Positions 10,817 to 57,287 of a stretch of DNA of 64,000 bases are shown here, piece after piece. Within the stretch, counting starts at the first letter, position 1. Every line of letters starts with the position of its first letter. A program made the translations under genes and the position numbers. The notes under the pieces were generated by a model. That model was not told the DNA's origin, searched no databases, and saw only the letters and a list, made by a program, of their open reading frames with translations. This DNA comes from Halovivax ruber XH-70 (GTDB taxonomy: Archaea > Halobacteriota > Halobacteria > Halobacteriales > Natrialbaceae): contig NC_019964.1 of assembly GCF_000328525.1 (NCBI RefSeq), positions 2,480,001 to 2,544,000 on the forward strand. The letters are read 5' to 3'.

Positions 10817-11497
10817 TCAACTAACCCGCTGGAACGCTTCAGACTCCTCGGCTTCCATCGCGATGAGTGAATTCGTCACGAGCGTCTCGATTCCCCGACG
10901 CAGTCGTTCGGTAACGGCCTGATCGGAGATACCCAGCGCGTCGCCCATATCCTGTGTGGACACCTGCCGTGGAATCGAATAGTAGCCCTCTTCGACCGCC
11001 CGGATTAGCGTCTCTCGCTGGGCGGTCGTCAGCCCATACCACATGCCGGTTCCCGGGCGAACGGGGTTGTAGATTCGACCGACTTCGAGGGAGATACTCG
11101 CGTCCGCGCAGTACTCCTGGAAGTCGCTGAGGCGTTCGTGAGTCTGGAAGCGAATTTCGAACTCCCAGGTGCTCGTAGTGCCGGTCGCACTGAGTAGCTG
11201 CCCACCGATCTCGGCGATTCCAAGAAAGAAGTCGTCCGTGGTGACGTCCCAGTCGAGTGAATACAGCCGTTCGTTCTTGTGCCGGCTCACTTCGACGATT
11301 CGATCCACGGCCGAGTGGTCACGGACGTTCTTTTCGAAAGACTCGCGGGCCTCGTCACTGACCGAGAAGAACGGTACTGCCTTCTCCCCGAGCGGCACCA
11401 TGGTTTCGAGTTCGACGGTTGCACCGGGGTCCAGCCTGAGAATGCGTCCCAGTTCGAACGCGTCGGCGGGTATCCGGAGGTGAGCGATGACGGCCAT
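10817..11497 (-). CDS. Bacterio-opsin-activator (Bat)-type HTH-10 transcriptional regulator
   Basis: The protein has 226 aa from ATG 11497 (MAVIAHLRIPADAFELG), the canonical opening of this haloarchaeal family. The N-terminal ~150 residues are the Bat ligand/GAF-like half. The C-terminal region has LTTAQRETLIRAVEEGYYSIPRQ followed by ALGISDQAVTERLRRG, the HTH-10 helix-turn-helix. It is a one-component regulator; the effector is unknown. A small gene (11716) is divergent from it. Confidence 0.88.
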   Translation of the reverse strand: MAVIAHLRIPADAFELGRILRLDPGATVELETMVPLGEKAVPFFSVSDEARESFEKNVRDHSAVDRIVEVSRHKNERLYSLDWDVTTDDFFLGIAEIGGQLLSATGTTSTWEFEIRFQTHERLSDFQEYCADASISLEVGRIYNPVRPGTGMWYGLTTAQRETLIRAVEEGYYSIPRQVSTQDMGDALGISDQAVTERLRRGIETLVTNSLIAMEAEESEAFQRVS

Positions 11498-29797: not shown

Positions 29798-30052
29798 CTA
29801 CCCGTCCGTCGAATGTTCACCCCGCCGAGCACGCGCTTTCAGGTGCTCGGCAAACTCGGAGAGGTTCATCGCGGCCGCACAGCCCGGACAGCACAGGCGT
29901 TCTGCGGTCTGGTAGTCGTGCGACAGCGCGGCCGGCGGCTCGGAGACGAGCCGAAAGAGCCGCGCCGGTTCCACGTCCCGATCACACCGATAGCACTCCC
30001 GATTCGGAGTCCTGTCGCCGGTTCCGTCGCTCGTTCGCTCGACGGATGTCAT
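29798..30052 (-). CDS. Small Cys-rich putative zinc-binding protein, copy A
   Basis: The protein has 84 aa from ATG 30052 (MTSVERTSDGTG). The core ECYRCDRDVEPARLFR, then LCCPGCAAAMNLSEFAEHLK, has CxxC and CCxxC pairs for a zinc site. It is paralogous to the gene at 52983, which shares SVER, RECYRCDRDV and the second Cys cluster. Both are preceded by the same structured leader of about 250 nt. Function unknown. It ends 7 bases from the convergent AAC(3) gene. Confidence 0.75.
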   Translation of the reverse strand: MTSVERTSDGTGDRTPNRECYRCDRDVEPARLFRLVSEPPAALSHDYQTAERLCCPGCAAAMNLSEFAEHLKARARRGEHSTDG

Positions 30053-30300
30053 CCGAGTGTCCTCCGCGGTGGCCCAGCTGACCAGCCAGCGGCACTCGGC
30101 CCCCCATCCCCGAAACCGAAACTCTGCGACGGATAGCGATACGACTCTCTAGGTAACGGGCGTGCGAGACCTTTTTGTCTCGATAGTGTCTTTCGGAACA
30201 TGGCTGACAAAATCCCTGCTACAGGATTTGGAAGCCACGTCCCGGGTGTCTCTAGCACCCGGGGCACTTTCGTACCCGAACGGACGGAGCTTCCGTCTGT
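30053..30300 (-). ncRNA. Structured RNA leader or ncRNA, copy A
   Basis: This non-coding stretch lies between a TATA box and the ATG of the small Cys-rich gene, read on the minus strand. Hairpins in order: GACGGA/TCCGTC; CCCGGGTG/CACCCGGG; AAATCC/GGATTT; CGAGAC/GTCTCG with loop AAAAAG; then CCGAGTG/CACTCGG ending at the ATG. The first loop carries GGAAGC, complementary to a later GGCTTCC, so a pseudoknot is possible. A block after the fourth hairpin (CCTAGAGAGTCGTATCGC and on) is nearly identical to copy B (52721-52982). No protein frame explains the conservation. Confidence 0.65.
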
Positions 30301-38727: not shown

Positions 38728-38898
38728 CGGGAAGGAAGCGATAACAAGTCCACCAATAGAAAGGTTGGTTGTACACAATTAGGCTGACATCGGACGCAGG
38801 CAGGAACAGTGAAGTACTGGTTTTGATACTCAATTATCAGCCACCGCTAGTAGGATCAGTATCCTCACAAGTTCAATTATTAAAATGAGATGAATAAC
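38728..38898. other. AT-rich spacer before the halocin-like gene
   Basis: This stretch (for example AATTATTAAAATGAGATG near 38874-38891) is much more AT-rich than the window average. It contains no gene. It leads into the TATA box of the next gene. Confidence 0.5.
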
Positions 38899-38907
38899 TA
38901 TATATAC
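38899..38907 (+). promoter_or_regulatory. TATA box of the halocin-like gene
   Basis: CTATATATAC is centred 26 bases before ATG 38929. This fixes the start at 38929 rather than at the in-frame ATG 38890, which would precede the promoter. Confidence 0.6.
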
Positions 38908-38928
38908 CCTCATGTATTTTTACATTCG

Positions 38929-39975
38929 ATGTCGCGGAAGAATGCCGATGACAGCGGAATTAGTCGGAGAAATGTGTTGCGTGCGAGTGCCGGGACAACC
39001 AGTGCCGCCGTCGGTGTCGCCGGTCTGAGTGAGCTAGTAACAGCCCACGATACGAACGAGAATAAACTGACCGAAATTGAACGGATACCGGAGGTCCGAT
39101 CAATACTTGGTGAGCTCGGTTACGAAGAACTACCCCAGCCCGATTCCGCCGAAACGGTGGAACTGGAATACGATTCGATCGTGGCTTCGGTCACGGTCAT
39201 TGACTTCGGATATGGTGAGCTGCACGTCGGAGAAGCTGATGGGCAGGTCGTTGCAACCTTCCATTTCGACGCGAACGGATCCTCGATTACTACTGGACAG
39301 CATAAACCAATCAAAAAATATCAAAAGATTCCCGACGGGACCCAAGCGTGGCTCGAAGGATCGGTTACGGGAACTAAATTCTATCGCACAACGACGAAAG
39401 ATGAGCGTGAATACGCCCTCTCGAGACTCTCACTCGAGAACAAAGAGGATGCGTCGGTCTACGCTACCGGCAGGGCTAATAGCTTCTATATCGATGTGCC
39501 CAGATCTAGTATCGCCGGCAATCCGAGCGAGCCAATAGGAGATGTTGCCAGGGCTAATACGAACGCTCCGCAATCCGCCGATAACGGTGACATAATCCGG
39601 TATAAAGTGACCCCCACGGGAACGTCCATCGCATCGATCAGGTCAGCAGGAACCAGTCATGGAGCTAACGACGTTGGCACAATGATAATTTCAAACCCGA
39701 TTAAAAAGGCGGCAGAAAAGGTCGCCAGGAATATCATCAAAACTCTCGGATGGGAAAGTGCCGACCAAGTAGACGATTCGTGTGGTTCCAAAGTCGGTGG
39801 ATGTCTAGATGGCATCTTATCGACGCTCGATTGCTTGAAGTGCAAGCCGATCTGTCTCGGTTCACCAACCGGAATCGGTGCTGTGCTGTGCATCGCATGC
39901 GTGATGGTTTCCTGTAGTCAAGCACTCAACACGAAATCTTGTGCCTTGGCAGTCAATTGTATCGAGAATCGGTAA
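38929..39975 (+). CDS. Putative halocin C8-like bacteriocin precursor
   Basis: The protein has 348 aa. SRRNVLRASAG (residues 12-22) is a Tat signal. Residues ~45-280 are a non-catalytic-looking beta-rich region. The last 60 residues (C285 to C344) hold ten cysteines among small hydrophobics, in the order SC, GGC, LDC, LKC, PIC, VLC, IAC, SC, SC, NC. Halocin C8 is known to be made as a Tat-exported precursor whose C-terminal Cys-rich peptide (ten Cys) is the toxin and whose N-terminal part is the immunity protein; this layout matches. Base composition is lower in GC than its surroundings. Exact homology needs a profile search. Confidence 0.6.
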   Translation: MSRKNADDSGISRRNVLRASAGTTSAAVGVAGLSELVTAHDTNENKLTEIERIPEVRSILGELGYEELPQPDSAETVELEYDSIVASVTVIDFGYGELHVGEADGQVVATFHFDANGSSITTGQHKPIKKYQKIPDGTQAWLEGSVTGTKFYRTTTKDEREYALSRLSLENKEDASVYATGRANSFYIDVPRSSIAGNPSEPIGDVARANTNAPQSADNGDIIRYKVTPTGTSIASIRSAGTSHGANDVGTMIISNPIKKAAEKVARNIIKTLGWESADQVDDSCGSKVGGCLDGILSTLDCLKCKPICLGSPTGIGAVLCIACVMVSCSQALNTKSCALAVNCIENR

Positions 39976-51163: not shown

Positions 51164-52516
51164 ATGGAAATCGAAATTGCAACAATCGGCGGCTACGAGG
51201 AAGTCGGCCGGCAGATGACTGCCGTCCGCGCAGGTACCGACATCGTCATCTTCGACATGGGGCTGAACCTGTCGAAGGTGCTGATCCACGACAACGTCCA
51301 GACCGAGGGGATGCACAGCCTCGATCTGATCGACATGGGAGCGATCCCGGACGATCGGGTCATGGCCGACCTCGAAGGTGACGTGCAGGCGATCGTGCCG
51401 ACGCACGGCCACCTGGACCACATCGGCGCGATCTCGAAACTGGCCCACCGTTACGACGCACCCGTCGTCTCGACGCCGTTTACCAGCGCGCTGGTCGAAG
51501 AGGAGTTCGACGACGAAGAGAAGTTCGGCGACGCCAACGAGCTGGTCACGATGGACCCCGGCGAGTCGATGTCGATCGGCGACACCGGCCAGGTCGAACT
51601 CGAGTTCGTCAACGTCACCCACTCCATCATCGGTGCGATCAACCCGGTGCTGCACACCCCCGAGGGTGCCGTCGTCTACGGACTGGACAAACGGATGGAC
51701 CACACGCCCGTCCTCGGCGACCCGATCGACATGGAGCGGTTCCGCGAGATCGGTCGCGAGGGCGAGGGTGTTCTCTGTTACATCGAAGACTGTACGAACG
51801 CGAACAAGCAGGGTCGGACGCCCTCCGAGAGCGTCGCGCGCGAGCACCTGAAAGACGTGATGTACAGTCTCGAGGACTACGACGGCGGGATCGTCGCGAC
51901 GACGTTCTCGAGTCACATCGCCCGCGTCAGCTCGCTCGTCGAGTTCGCCAAGGACATCGGCCGACAGCCGGTCCTCCTCGGGCGCTCGATGGAGAAGTAC
52001 TCCGGTGCCGCAGAGCGTCTCGGCTTCATCGACTTCCCCGACGACCTCGGGATGTTCGGCTACCGACGCTCGATCGACCAGTCCCTCGAACGAATTATGG
52101 AAGACGGCAAGGAGAACTTCCTCCCCGTCGTCACCGGCCACCAGGGCGAGCCGCGCGCGATGCTCACCCGGATGGCCCGCGGTGAGACGAACTACACCCT
52201 GGACGAGGGTGACAAAGTCATCTTCTCCGCCCGCGTCATCCCGGAGCCGACGAACGAGGGCCAGCGCTACCAGGCCGAGAAGCTCCTCGGCATGCAGGGC
52301 GCGCGCGTCTACTCCGACATCCACGTCTCCGGCCACCTGTGCCGAGAGGGCCACTACCAGATGCTCGATGCGCTCCAGCCCCAGCACGTGATTCCGGCCC
52401 ACCAGAACATGAGCGGCTTCTCCGGCTACGTCGACCTCTGCCAGGACGAGGGCTACACGCTCGGTCGAGACCTCCACGTGACCTCGAACGGGAACCTCAT
52501 CCAGCTCGTCGAATAA
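51164..52516 (+). CDS. rnj: Ribonuclease J (archaeal beta-CASP, 5'-3' exoribonuclease)
   Basis: The protein has 450 aa. Metallo-beta-lactamase motifs: [10 protein letters not shown] (H81, H83, D85, H86) and NVTHSIIGA. Later motifs: IEDCTNAN, the beta-CASP switch [12 protein letters not shown], and [26 protein letters not shown] closes the active site. It is the haloarchaeal RNase J of ~450 aa (bacterial RNase J is longer). It degrades 5'-monophosphorylated RNA. Confidence 0.93.
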
Positions 52517-52693
52517 GGCCAGTCCGTTCGTCGAGTGGGTTCGATTGGGAGAGACGGCACGCTCCTGACCACGGACGAGCCAAATTATCTGCGACCGTTC
52601 TTCGTATTATCCTGAGTGGCTACCACGATTGTTCATAAGATCCAAAATGACGGAGTGGTTTGGCGCTTGTTTCTAAATTCCCACCCTGTCCAG

Positions 52694-52708
52694 TAAGTAT
52701 AATATACA
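52694..52708 (+). promoter_or_regulatory. TATA promoter of structured RNA copy B
   Basis: AGTAAGTATAATATAC matches copy A's AGTAACTATATTATCC, and CCACC and TTGTTT occur upstream in both. Centred 20-26 bases before the first hairpin. Confidence 0.55.
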
Positions 52709-52720
52709 GTAGCACGTAGC

Positions 52721-52982
52721 CCACGCTGGAAGCCAGCGTCTCCATCCGTCGCAGGGGACAGCGCTGAGAAATGTCCCGGGTGGTGAGGCACCCGAGACGC
52801 GTGGCTTCCAAACCGCATCGCGATTTGGTTGCCATGTTCCGGAAGACACCATCGAGACAAAAAGGTCTCGCACGCCCATTGCCTAGAGAGTCGTATCGCT
52901 ATCCGTCGCAGAGCTTCGTTTACGGGGATTGGGGGCCGAGTCACTTCGCTCGGTTCAGACCTTCGAATCGCGAGGTGCTCGG
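52721..52982 (+). ncRNA. Structured RNA leader or ncRNA, copy B
   Basis: About 260 nt between a TATA box and the ATG of the second Cys-rich gene. Helices in order: ACGCTGG/CCAGCGT with loop AAG; CGGGTG/CACCCG; CCAAACCGC/GCGATTTGG with loop ATC (one mismatch); CGAGAC/GTCTCG with loop AAAAAG; CCGAG(T)CAC/GTGCTCGG ending at the ATG. GGAAGCC of the first loop complements GGCTTCC at 52803-52809. Helices 1, 3 and 5 differ in sequence from copy A but keep pairing. It may hide the GAGGTG ribosome-binding site. No protein frame crosses it. Confidence 0.65.
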
Positions 52983-53222
52983 ATGAAATCCGTCGAGCGA
53001 GAGCGCGGCGGAGCTGGCGATGTGGCTCGCGATCGGGAGTGCTATCGGTGTGACCGGGACGTGGCACCGCCGCGGCTCTTTCGGGTGGACGTCGAGCCGC
53101 CGGAGATCTTCTCGGCGGACTACGCCCACTCGGTTCGGTACTGCTGTCCGGACTGTATCGCCGCGATGGGGATGCTGGAGTTTACGGAACGGTGGAAGGA
53201 GGAAGCAGGGTTGCTAGAGTAG
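52983..53222 (+). CDS. Small Cys-rich putative zinc-binding protein, copy B
   Basis: The protein has 79 aa from ATG 52983 (MKSVERERGGAG). RECYRCDRDVAPPRLFR and YCCPDCIAAMGMLEF are shared with copy A at 29798, with small changes between. It contains CxxC plus CCxxC. The start follows a helix that abuts the ATG. A Shine-Dalgarno-like GAGGTG is ~8 bases before it, inside that helix. Function unknown. Confidence 0.75.
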   Translation: MKSVERERGGAGDVARDRECYRCDRDVAPPRLFRVDVEPPEIFSADYAHSVRYCCPDCIAAMGMLEFTERWKEEAGLLE

Positions 53223-53271
53223 GCGGCCTGAAATGACTCGGTTGCTGTTTCGATTATTTTGTCTCACAATT

Positions 53272-53709
53272 TCACATACGTGGGATCCACTCTGGAAACA
53301 TCCAAGTTGGAATCAAAAGAGGCTCACGAGAGATATCCTCGTTCAAAACATTCTCTCTGAATAACTCTGGTTCCCTAAACGCGGTTGCATCGGATTCAGA
53401 AGCCATAGCTATCGTATAGAGAAACGTCAGGGATAGGAAGAGAAGAGAGGGAGAACTCTCCACTAAGAAAAGCAATGCCGAGAAGATTCCAAAGGGCAAC
53501 CAAACAAATGGTGCTATCCCAGAAAAGCGAATGACCTCTTCGTCCACTGACTCAATGTTTCTAAAAAATACACCGTTAGGAATCACCCAAAGTCTGAAAC
53601 TTACCTTTGGATTTGCATTCGCTAATTTCCCTACGACCCAATGAGCACCCTCATGAAGATACGTCGCAGGTATTATAGCCAGTATAAACGGAATCGCGTA
53701 TTCTTCCAT
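53272..53709 (-). CDS. Putative membrane metalloprotease-like protein with HEGAH motif
   Basis: The protein has 145 aa from ATG 53709 (MEEYAIPFILAIIPATYL). HEGAHWVVGKL places an HExxH zinc motif at the end of the first membrane helix. Two further hydrophobic segments follow (~70-90, ~95-112). The SESDATAF segment may supply a third acidic ligand, as in M50 or DUF3267-like proteases. AT-rich codon use sets it apart. Small size and missing family context keep this tentative. Confidence 0.5.
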   Translation of the reverse strand: MEEYAIPFILAIIPATYLHEGAHWVVGKLANANPKVSFRLWVIPNGVFFRNIESVDEEVIRFSGIAPFVWLPFGIFSALLFLVESSPSLLFLSLTFLYTIAMASESDATAFREPELFRENVLNEDISREPLLIPTWMFPEWIPRM

Positions 53710-53877
53710 GACAGCCAAATAGATTCCCTATAAAAATAATTTTTCTGCAGAGTATTCCCAGCAACTCTCACTTGTGAAGTCCGGTTAGTTATTCTCTTCT
53801 GGTTACGGCCTCGGTCACGACATCGAACTGGACAGTCATCGTCGAGAGGGTCTCAACGTACAAATGGTGGGAAGAAC

Positions 53878-55122
53878 TCAGTTTTCCATGTTTTTTAGCC
53901 AATCTTCCCGGAGAACATAGTAGTCCTGTTCATCAATCATATCCCATATCACTAAACAGCACAGGGTTAACCCAAGAACACCAATAATTGCCCCACTCCC
54001 GTTACCATGTATGTTGAAATTCCTTTGCTCAGACATCACCGCCAAAAAATTCTGTGTAGAGTCCCGCTCACGGTCCAAAATTGAAGTATTTCCCATCACT
54101 CCCGCCAACAGTTGCAACTCAGATAGAGAATACCTATTTAAATCATTTATTATAGATAATGAATCATTTGTGGTGTCAGTAGCAACGTGCTCCTTCCAAT
54201 GCTGGAGCCTATCATGATATGTTAATCCGCTCCGATCTGGAGAACCAGGTCGCCACGTAGCCTCAATTTGACCTGAATTTACGTTTCCCTCTTGGTCTAA
54301 GTTAGGGCATCTTCGCTTAACTAATCCATCCAAAATGGCCAACGAGGTAGGCCCAGCGATTCTAAAAGCAGATTCAGGCGAAGTGGCTCCTAAGCCAGTG
54401 ATGTTTTTCACGAATTGCTGGGTTGGTCTATCAACACCCTGGATTCGCTGTTCCACCAACACATAATCGATAAGGCTTCTAAAATCATGTACGATTCCAG
54501 CAAAAGCAAAGTTGTCGGGTTGCCCGGCTGTATCAGGGTTTGTAAGCCTGTCAAAAACATCACTTTCGCCAAGAGAGAAAGATAGGAAATCCTTAGTGAA
54601 ATTCCAATAGCTTAGGAAATCAGTAGACACTGTGGAGGTTTTCGACCTCAATATTAGATCAAAAAGGTATCTAGGATATGTTCTTAGATCACCGATGGTA
54701 CTGAAGTGAATTGGTTGGTCAAACAGTATGTTACTGCCTGTGAAAATTACTGGTTGTGCAATCTTAACACCATCGCCTCCCAGAGTCAGTCCTTCATTTA
54801 GTTTCTCTATGAAATCTTCAAGTCTGTCTGATGGTGTATCGCCTTGGGGATCGGGAATTGGACTAAAGTCATTTTCCTGGTTAGATTCATTCTCATATTG
54901 GATTATTTGGGCAGTTATATAATCAACACTTTCAGTGTCTGGTTTCTCTAAAATGGACTGAAGAACATCTGGATCACCTTGGAACTTAACGAGATATTCA
55001 TCTTCTGAAATTCTTGTAGAATTGTACCCATTTACTTCTTCATGGTATTTTGGCGCATCCCCCCTGAAGTCTTCAGGACCATCAATTTCAACGACCGGTA
55101 CTCGAAACCATTTTTCTGCCAT
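53878..55122 (-). CDS. Island protein of unknown function with HEPN-like motif and C-terminal membrane segment
   Basis: The protein has 414 aa from ATG 55122 (MAEKWFRVPVVEIDG). RNFNIHG (R367-H372, G373) matches the Rx4H (RNxxxHG) motif of HEPN RNases. It lies at the end of a helical region (residues ~305-372) before a hydrophobic helix (~377-396). The N-terminal ~100 residues are charged; the middle (FTGSNILFDQPIHFST and on) is unrecognised. AT-rich with unusual codons. HEPN assignment rests on one motif only. Confidence 0.5.
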   Translation of the reverse strand: MAEKWFRVPVVEIDGPEDFRGDAPKYHEEVNGYNSTRISEDEYLVKFQGDPDVLQSILEKPDTESVDYITAQIIQYENESNQENDFSPIPDPQGDTPSDRLEDFIEKLNEGLTLGGDGVKIAQPVIFTGSNILFDQPIHFSTIGDLRTYPRYLFDLILRSKTSTVSTDFLSYWNFTKDFLSFSLGESDVFDRLTNPDTAGQPDNFAFAGIVHDFRSLIDYVLVEQRIQGVDRPTQQFVKNITGLGATSPESAFRIAGPTSLAILDGLVKRRCPNLDQEGNVNSGQIEATWRPGSPDRSGLTYHDRLQHWKEHVATDTTNDSLSIINDLNRYSLSELQLLAGVMGNTSILDRERDSTQNFLAVMSEQRNFNIHGNGSGAIIGVLGLTLCCLVIWDMIDEQDYYVLREDWLKNMEN

Positions 55123-55215
55123 GCAACCAATATATCGGCACGGATTGGTTTATAATTTGGCAGTGGAAGGATTCAATACCCTAACATCGCTCGTCGGTTC
55201 GAAATGCGGGAGAAG

Positions 55216-55288
55216 TGGGCCGGCGCGAATTCGAATCGCGGTTACGGCCACCCGAAGGCCGAAGGATACCAAGCTACCCCACCGGCCC
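55216..55288 (-). tRNA. tRNA-Pro (anticodon CGG)
   Basis: 73-nt cloverleaf on the minus strand: acceptor GGGCCGG/CCGGCCC with discriminator A; D arm GGGT...ATCC; anticodon stem CGGCC/GGCCG with loop TTCGGGT (U33, CGG, G37); T arm CGCGA/TCGCG with loop TTCGAAT. CCA is not encoded. A TATA box TATAATTATT (55315-55324) lies ~30 bases upstream. The AT-rich island adjoins its 3' end. Confidence 0.95.
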
Positions 55289-55568
55289 GCAGGTGAAATG
55301 TTGCGACGGCCGCGTATAATTATTGCGTTGTACGCCTCGGCGGACCGGGCGACGACCTGTGGACGGACTCGACGCCTAGCCGGTCACCTGGCCGGAACCA
55401 CCGGTTCGAATACGTGAACGTTGCCTCGTCCCGACGGACCGAACCAGCTCGATAACAAAGGCGTGAAACGGACTTTTTCAGGGGTATGAGACGTTCGAGA
55501 GAGACGGACGGAGGGCTTTTCCCGGCGATTGCGCGCCGTCCGACCGACGCCTCCCCGCGGAGGGCGGC

Positions 55569-57287
55569 ATGACGAAGACGGTCGTGCTCGGGTTCGACGC
55601 ACTCGACTTCCGGTACCTCGACCGATTCGCGGACTCCCTGCCGAACTTCGCCGCCATGCGCGAGGAAGGCGTCGAGGCGCCGCTCGAATCGACCCACCCG
55701 CCCTGGACCGGCAGCGCCTGGCCGTCGCTGTACACCGGCTGCGATCCGAGTCACCACGGCGTCTACGGCTTCTTCGACATCGACGGCTACCCCGACGAGG
55801 GGACCGTCGTCTCGCGAGCGGACGTGGGCCCGGCCGCGATCTGGGACTACCTCTCGCGCGACGACCGTCCCTCGGTGGTGATGAACGTCCCTGTCACCCA
55901 TCCCGCCGGGCCGATCGAGGGCGTCCTGCTCCCGGGCTACCTCGCGTCCGAGGACGATCCCGGCCACCCGAAGGGGATCCGGGACGAACTCGAGGCGGAG
56001 CTCGGAGAGCCCTATCGAATCTACTCGCGGGGCGAACTCAGCGACGACCCCGAAGCAAAGTTCGCGGGCTATCTCGAATTGCTCGACCTGCGGCGGCGGG
56101 CCGCCCTCGCACTGCTCGAGCGCGAGGAGTGGGAGCTGGCGTGGATACAGGTCCAGAAGACCGACGCGGTGTTCCACAACTTCGACGAGGAAGCTCGCTT
56201 CCGGGAGGTGTACGAAGCCGCCGACCGACTGGTCGGAGACGTCCGCGACGCCGTCGGCGACGACGTCAACGTGCTCTGCTGTTCGGACCACGGAATCGGC
56301 CCCGTCACCGGCCACGTGATCTACGTCAACGAGGTGCTCCGCCGGCACGGCTTCGTCACGGTCGACGAGGGCAACGGCGACGACGGGCCGTCGCTCTCGG
56401 ACGCGAAGCCGTCACTCGCGACCGCAGCCGATCGCACGGGATCGAACGGGGCCAGCCCGCTCGAACGGGCGTTCACGATCACCCGACGCGGCGCGGAACG
56501 GGTCGGGCTCGACCCCGCGACGGTGTACGGCGCGGCCGAGCGGATCGGGCTCGACGGGGTTCTCCTCGACCTCGTGCCCGATTCGGTCGTCCAGAACACC
56601 GGCGAGGCTGTCGACTGGCGCCGGTCGCAGGCCTACTGCGCCAGCGCGACCCGGATGGGGGTCCGGATCAACCTCGAGGGTCGAGAACCCGCGGGCGTCG
56701 TCCCGCAGTCGGCGTACGAGACCGTTCGCGACGAGATCATCGCGCTCCTCTCGAACCTCGAGACGCCCGACGGGAAGCCGGCGTTCGATTTCGTCTGTCG
56801 GCGCGAGGAGCGCTACGACGGCCCTCACCTCGGGAAGGCGCCTGACGTGCTCTTCCGCCCGCGTGAGATGAACAACACGGTCAAGACGGGTCTGTACGGC
56901 ATCGAAACGGCGCGAACCGACGTCTTCGACCACAAACTCGAGGGCGCGTTCGTCGCCGCGGGCCCCGACGTCTCGAACGAGCGGGAAGAGGCGGGAGGGC
57001 GGGACGGAGCGAGGGAGGCCGGACCGGAACGCCTGTCGATCACCGACGTCGCCCCCATCGCGATGGCGCTGCTCGACCGGCCGGTTCCCGAGCAGATGAC
57101 CGGCTCCGTCCCCGATTCGGTGGTCGCCGGCCCCGTCGAACGGTCGCGGTACGCGGACGCTCGCGATGGGCCGCCCGTGGGTGCCCGGGCAGGCGACGAT
57201 GACGGGGAAGGACCGGACAGTGAAGCCGACAGCGGCAACGCGGACAGCGAGGTGACCGCCCGCCTCGAAAACCTCGGGTACATCTGA
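55569..57287 (+). CDS. Alkaline-phosphatase-superfamily phosphodiesterase/pyrophosphatase
   Basis: The protein has 572 aa from ATG 55569 (MTKTVVLGFDALDFRYL). Metal and nucleophile motifs: GFDALD, PPWTGSAWPSLYTG with the Thr/Ser, the AWIQVQKTDAVFHNF segment and CCSDHGIGPVTGH. C-terminal half carries GVRINLEGREPAG and FDFVCRREERY, then a disordered acidic tail. It is a type I phosphodiesterase/nucleotide pyrophosphatase-like protein, no signal peptide. The flippase ATG overlaps its stop by one base, suggesting envelope or glycan metabolism. Confidence 0.85.
   Translation: MTKTVVLGFDALDFRYLDRFADSLPNFAAMREEGVEAPLESTHPPWTGSAWPSLYTGCDPSHHGVYGFFDIDGYPDEGTVVSRADVGPAAIWDYLSRDDRPSVVMNVPVTHPAGPIEGVLLPGYLASEDDPGHPKGIRDELEAELGEPYRIYSRGELSDDPEAKFAGYLELLDLRRRAALALLEREEWELAWIQVQKTDAVFHNFDEEARFREVYEAADRLVGDVRDAVGDDVNVLCCSDHGIGPVTGHVIYVNEVLRRHGFVTVDEGNGDDGPSLSDAKPSLATAADRTGSNGASPLERAFTITRRGAERVGLDPATVYGAAERIGLDGVLLDLVPDSVVQNTGEAVDWRRSQAYCASATRMGVRINLEGREPAGVVPQSAYETVRDEIIALLSNLETPDGKPAFDFVCRREERYDGPHLGKAPDVLFRPREMNNTVKTGLYGIETARTDVFDHKLEGAFVAAGPDVSNEREEAGGRDGAREAGPERLSITDVAPIAMALLDRPVPEQMTGSVPDSVVAGPVERSRYADARDGPPVGARAGDDDGEGPDSEADSGNADSEVTARLENLGYI

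Follow-up and report, generated by a model that had tools for sequence, protein, structure and literature searches.

Archaeal innate antiviral systems are less explored than bacterial ones. Among the described HEPN proteins closest to the one considered here, Csm6 is tied to type III CRISPR and combines its HEPN domain, by fusion, with a sensor domain for ring nucleotides. Tha of staphylococcal prophages is, in the available excerpt of its description (PMC11087260), a single protein with a low-confidence N-terminus and a C-terminal HEPN domain carrying the motif RNSIMH; the histidine is needed for its function, and a viral tail protein serves as its activator. In AbiA the C-terminal HEPN domain has an Rx6H motif and is fused to a polymerase, and the accessible part of the report (PMC11077055) gives no RNase activity found for this domain, which serves dimerisation. 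HEPN toxins of HEPN/MNT toxin-antitoxin pairs are common according to the excerpt of a further paper (PMC7641770). As to what defines the domain, the available sections of a HEPN survey (PMC3710099) describe a motif that ends one helix just before the next and an acidic residue in helix 2, typically within Ex3[KR].

The window (the whole 64,000-nucleotide stretch of Halovivax ruber DNA analysed) contains at 53878-55122, on the minus strand, an ATG-initiated gene for a 414-residue protein that the original prediction had taken for a possible membrane-anchored HEPN defence protein with an N-terminal sensor region, lying in an AT-rich segment on the 3' side of tRNA-Pro. The gene, its motif and its surroundings were found as described: the string RNFNIHG occupies residues 367-373 and matches the Rx4H pattern, the motif proper (RNFNIH, residues 367-372) being encoded at 54007-54024 on the minus strand; G+C is 42% in the gene versus 60-70% in the flanks further out; and 92 bp separate the start of the gene from the 3' end of tRNA-Pro (cgg; 55215-55288, minus strand), the island lying on the 3' side of the latter. 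A TATA-like box (TTATAAA, 55149-55155, minus strand) about 30 nt upstream of the ATG suggests, judging by sequence, a candidate promoter belonging to the gene itself. Rfam gave no matches over 52400-55600. A single R....H in 414 residues is about what chance would supply, and the motif gains significance only because both of its residues are invariant in 17 aligned loci. Our preferred reading, which we hold to be probable though far from assured, is a single-protein haloarchaeal HEPN ribonuclease that is carried as cargo by elements at tRNA genes and arrests growth when triggered by infection.

A search with the single sequence detected the family in 7 of 391 genomes of the class, the source genome included, and profiles built from the first members raised this to 8 of 391. 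The profile search of an order-level sample yielded 16 positive genomes out of 392, belonging to 12 of 95 genera and contributing 17 loci (one genome has two copies), and in a phylum-level sample 6 of 392 genomes were positive, every one from the same order; the three samples overlap. Among the 17 loci, L010 and L011 are broken. With tblastn, no relative was found for the window protein or for L053 in plasmids and phages, nor for L015 in plasmids. Viral contigs scanned with four family queries and genome contigs scanned with the window protein likewise contained no relative, and the genome-contig scan with query A1 returned one match (L087, Natronorubrum sulfidifaciens JCM 14089), which is the L015 copy. 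The window protein passes no family model of Pfam, NCBIfam or PADLOC, and the best E-values over all 17 members were 0.034 for Pfam and 0.0018 for PADLOC, so that the other members match PADLOC anti-phage system models only at E >= 0.0018. Literature on haloarchaeal HEPN proteins or on HEPN cargo at tRNA genes, in the portions available, contained no account of the family. The defence and domain libraries consulted hold no match to this compact one-protein family, which recurs within a single haloarchaeal order in 12 genera or more. That it lacks a database model and represents a new family of HEPN RNases is the best reading and a reasonably probable one.

Conservation was evaluated in an alignment of all 17 loci, which the broken L010 and L011 enter as partial reading frames. 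Mean column identity is 19%, and R367 and H372 are its sole invariant columns, so the expectation that both would be kept in homologues was borne out in 17 of 17 loci. The next most conserved position is W173 (16 of the 16 rows with a residue at that column), which lies in a conserved N-terminal helical region recognised from alignment and model (residues 143-185; 54568-54696, minus strand). The residue after the arginine is N in 14 loci and H, G or W in one each, in line with the polar residue expected at this position in HEPN proteins, and G follows the motif histidine in 14 of 17. In the preceding core helix, an acidic residue is present at D265 (54328-54330, minus strand; D or E in all 15 rows that cover it), where it starts a [DE]x3[KR] pattern, position 269 being K or R in 10 of 15 rows. 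The HEPN hallmarks, i.e. a conserved Rx4-6H, a polar residue after R, a motif at a helix end and an acidic residue in helix 2, are all present, and the C-terminal region is very probably a HEPN domain.

An AlphaFold model computed from 5 sequences was poor (mean pLDDT 57.9), and one computed from all 17 reached a mean of 69.9. In the latter, helices are predicted at residues 143-159, 167-185, 203-227, 249-271, 359-371 and 378-395, mostly with pLDDT of about 70-95, and the block means over residues 251-410 vary between 55 (291-300) and 95 (381-390). The last four of these helices, with an insert at 272-358, make up the putative HEPN helical domain (residues ~203-395; 53938-54516, minus strand), the helices being named after the description in the HEPN survey. 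The motif closes helix 359-371 and is followed by a loop and helix 378-395, as the HEPN layout demands. The fold expected in the original prediction was borne out in part, matches in structure libraries being weak. Foldseek searches of PDB and viral models with both models returned nothing at E <= 0.001 and the 17-member profile had no meaningful match among PDB sequences, absences from match lists that do not constitute evidence against a HEPN fold. A second structure aligner listed mostly seven-helix receptors and a few soluble proteins, HEPN proteins among them. In the second of two comparisons the best soluble protein was the AbiA HEPN domain (8oz7_C; Z 5.3, rmsd 3.8, 122 aligned positions, model residues 192-396), and Csm6 was listed there with two chains (Z 4.6 and 4.5); a third Csm6 chain (Z 5.8) came from the other comparison; unrelated helical bundles occur at similar Z, and by the aligner's own caveat values of 4.5-5.8 may reflect a mere common arrangement of helices.

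The family was further compared with haloarchaeal HEPN sets drawn from 97 genomes each (ApeA-type, 5 sequences; DUF4145, 6; Swt1-like, 1, which is below its family cut-off) using hhalign on the C-terminal part of the 15 full members. Default local alignments were short and non-significant; those against ApeA and Swt1-like landed on the R....H motif. A longer alignment with ApeA, in which the acidic-helix and motif regions are paired together, scored 16.7 against 16.6 for the best of 150 column shuffles and 14.8 for the reversed profile, a slim margin. Shuffles scoring at or above the real alignment numbered 0 of 150 for ApeA, 13 of 150 for Swt1-like and 81 of 150 for DUF4145. At the level of profiles this weakly supports a HEPN affiliation that may be nearest to ApeA. 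Nine Pfam families are matched at E <= 1 by one or more of the 17 members, and PF18739 is not one of them. When profile consensus sequences and single members were run against Pfam and PADLOC, the matches were sub-threshold throughout; two bear HEPN names, CARF-HEPN and RTasHEPN, neither is significant, and the non-significant RTasHEPN stretch in L057 (residues 226-247) includes the motif of that member (239-244). As neither fold-library nor sequence-profile searches clearly single out HEPN, the protein might be some other helical enzyme or binding protein in which R and H stand five residues apart by chance. We regard this as improbable, given that three HEPN features beyond the R/H pair fit and that the ApeA comparison pairs the motif and the acidic-helix region.

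The original prediction had read the hydrophobic stretch after the motif as a membrane helix, and together with the N-terminus as sensor this would make a membrane-anchored sensor-HEPN. The window protein itself suggests such an anchor, with a Kyte-Doolittle peak of 2.34 over residues 378-396, and its first 90 residues lack a counterpart in the 60 remaining genomes of the 61 in the family. In 15 of the 16 other loci, however, the post-motif helix is again the most hydrophobic stretch and scores just 1.15-1.84, mostly near or under the usual membrane threshold (L056 differs, its maximum of 1.85 lying outside this helix). The model also places the helix where HEPN helix 4 belongs, with pLDDT block means above 90 for residues 381-410. 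Hydropathy and model thus point to a buried helix 4 of the predicted domain; an anchor is not supported, and the membrane-anchored sensor-HEPN appears extremely improbable. Residues 1-94 (54841-55122, minus strand) form a segment that is mostly of low confidence in the model, and in the alignment the relatives begin later or carry different N-terminal extensions. Since the N-terminal ~90 residues are confined to this one genome of the family, the label of sensor amounts to a guess, and a sensing role of the N-terminal region is possible. One family member (L055:8289-9827) is longer at the N-terminus by about 200 residues, which are a candidate for another kind of sensor part.

Within the favoured reading of a single-protein HEPN ribonuclease, Tha would be the nearest working analogue, the likeness being one of layout. 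Going by the available excerpt of its report, the two share a single-protein organisation, a C-terminal HEPN domain, an RNxxxH motif, an N-terminus that is not confidently predicted and carriage on integrating elements; they come from different domains of life, and a trigger and RNase activity are known for Tha only. The ApeA-type HEPN domain (PF18739) is similar in its Rx4H motif, the N that mostly follows R and the acidic residue in the preceding helix, whereas haloarchaeal ApeA has a long and apparently unrelated N-terminal part. With HEPN/MNT systems the protein has in common a HEPN RNase, putative here, on mobile DNA. It was not assigned to ApeA, to HEPN/MNT or to a PADLOC system because no member passes PF18739, no MNT partner was seen beside the gene and no PADLOC model passes. 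AbiA shares the R/H motif and, having a HEPN domain in which the report (as excerpted) found the motif without RNase activity, it offers a precedent for a domain that binds RNA or dimerises without cleavage, for instance in a mobile-element regulator. We consider such a non-cleaving role unlikely here: R and H are the sole invariant columns among 17 divergent loci, and because they alone are invariant, their role should be chemical rather than structural. The protein is likely to be an active, if still putative, RNase.

The neighbours of the gene were scanned selectively (30 proteins with Pfam, 10 with PADLOC), so that the counts of defence genes and integrases given here are lower bounds. The L015 copy adjoins a DrmD/BrxH-like SNF2 helicase (E 7.6e-81) and a DUF499/HmaC-like ATPase (E 1.1e-15); among the proteins scanned at the other loci there was no defence match, leaving defence genes beside 1 of 17 loci. 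Among the proteins scanned, the predicted link to defence was thus seen at L015 and at none of the other 16 loci; beyond this, a defence role would follow from what HEPN proteins do in other systems. No partner gene recurs: what the loci have in common are families of integrases and of ordinary genes of elements or hosts, no MNT nucleotidyltransferase was present among the neighbours scanned with Pfam, and in L013, L014 and L059 the HEPN gene appears alone among host genes. A HEPN RNase restrained by an unrecognised antitoxin, i.e. an addiction-type toxin that stabilises its island, would have precedent in the common HEPN toxins mentioned above and would suit a gene borne on an island. The lack of a recurring partner makes a stand-alone protein likelier than a toxin-antitoxin pair, and, with no nucleotidyltransferase found and the gene by itself at three loci, we give the addiction toxin a minor share of the probability.

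A tRNA gene lies within 1.5 kb in 7 of the 17 loci, and in all seven the HEPN gene is on its 3' side: Phe at 24 bp (L010), Pro at 92 bp (the window), Val at 95 bp (L059) and 173 bp (L052), Lys at 421 bp (L013), Ala at 614 bp (L054) and Glu at 1410 bp (L012). Of the 10 tRNAs in the loci, seven are located within the 18% of sequence closest to the HEPN gene (p ~4e-4, a value qualified by the fact that the 1.5-kb limit was chosen after the data had been seen). All 17 HEPN genes are below their own locus in G+C. Integrases were detected beside the gene or elsewhere on the island in four loci. In L052, 27 bp of the tRNA-Val 3' end are repeated exactly at 11094-11120, and the repeats bracket about 2 kb that hold the HEPN gene and an N-terminal integrase fragment. 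L029 has a 22-bp tRNA-Arg repeat just beyond its integrase and so combines an integrase with a duplicated tRNA 3' end, an integrase adjoins the gene in L012, where two identical tRNA-Glu genes lie 5.5 kb apart, and in L058 the integrase is 51 bp from the HEPN gene. A mobile island linked to tRNA genes is supported across the family; for the window copy, neither an att repeat of tRNA-Pro nor an integrase was found in the island. The slot between a 79-aa repeat-borne reading frame and tRNA-Pro (53223-55214, no strand assigned) is filled in the closest genus relative with ~3.06 kb of other genes, which marks the site as variable. These are three unannotated genes (L070:3268-6330; 167, 273 and 159 aa) with no Pfam match. 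In the window island a single further gene was called, at 53272-53718 (minus strand) and downstream of the HEPN gene; it encodes a 148-aa hydrophobic zincin-like protein with a DUF3267 match (E 6.5e-5) that is below the cut-off, and this protein has no match near the family loci searched.

In the favoured mechanism, the C-terminal four-helix HEPN domain would dimerise, and both chains would contribute R367 and H372 to a metal-independent RNA-cleaving site, with help from the acidic residue in the helix before. Until a virus or a rival element is sensed, the N-terminal part, which is less conserved, would keep the protein inactive; once triggered, it would cut host and viral RNA and growth would stop, as with Tha. 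Small integrative elements that target tRNA genes at their 3' ends would carry the gene as cargo. Antiviral growth arrest as the function seems to us somewhat more probable than not. A more speculative extension, to which we attach a low probability, is that such loci are mobile single-gene immunity cassettes, elements down to 2 kb in size that contain hardly anything besides an integrase and one HEPN RNase, the latter acting as an RNA-cutting suicide switch whose N-terminal sensing parts change quickly; an equally tentative part of it has these cassettes inserting at many different tRNA genes, at the 3' end in each case, with Phe, Pro, Val, Ala, Lys, Glu and Arg represented among the loci seen. 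The family would supply an antiviral candidate that can be tested in haloarchaea with tractable genetics, and searches for such genes should cover tRNA-gene slots besides clustered defence islands.

Several further features were observed. Two HEPN-bearing islands encode large proteins that are 31% alike over 581 aa (L015:15866-19501 and L029:11552-13591); PADLOC gave no match for either and Pfam none for the L029 one, and they are perhaps element replication proteins. Next to the window island, a multi-copy repeat (52767-53222, and again at 29932-30269) has many matches in its own genome and in all four genus relatives and none in Pfam, NCBIfam or Rfam. It includes the 79-aa reading frame, which has a CxxC motif (52983-53222), and upstream of this a highly conserved stretch with the hairpin CGAGAC-AAAAAG-GTCTCG, the stretch as a whole folding no better than shuffles. 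Elsewhere in the window, an AT-rich gene at 38890-39975 (1-kb windows of ~51% G+C) encodes a 361-aa protein for which no family passes; with its Tat-like signal and a C-terminus rich in cysteine, it is reminiscent of halocin C8-type precursors.
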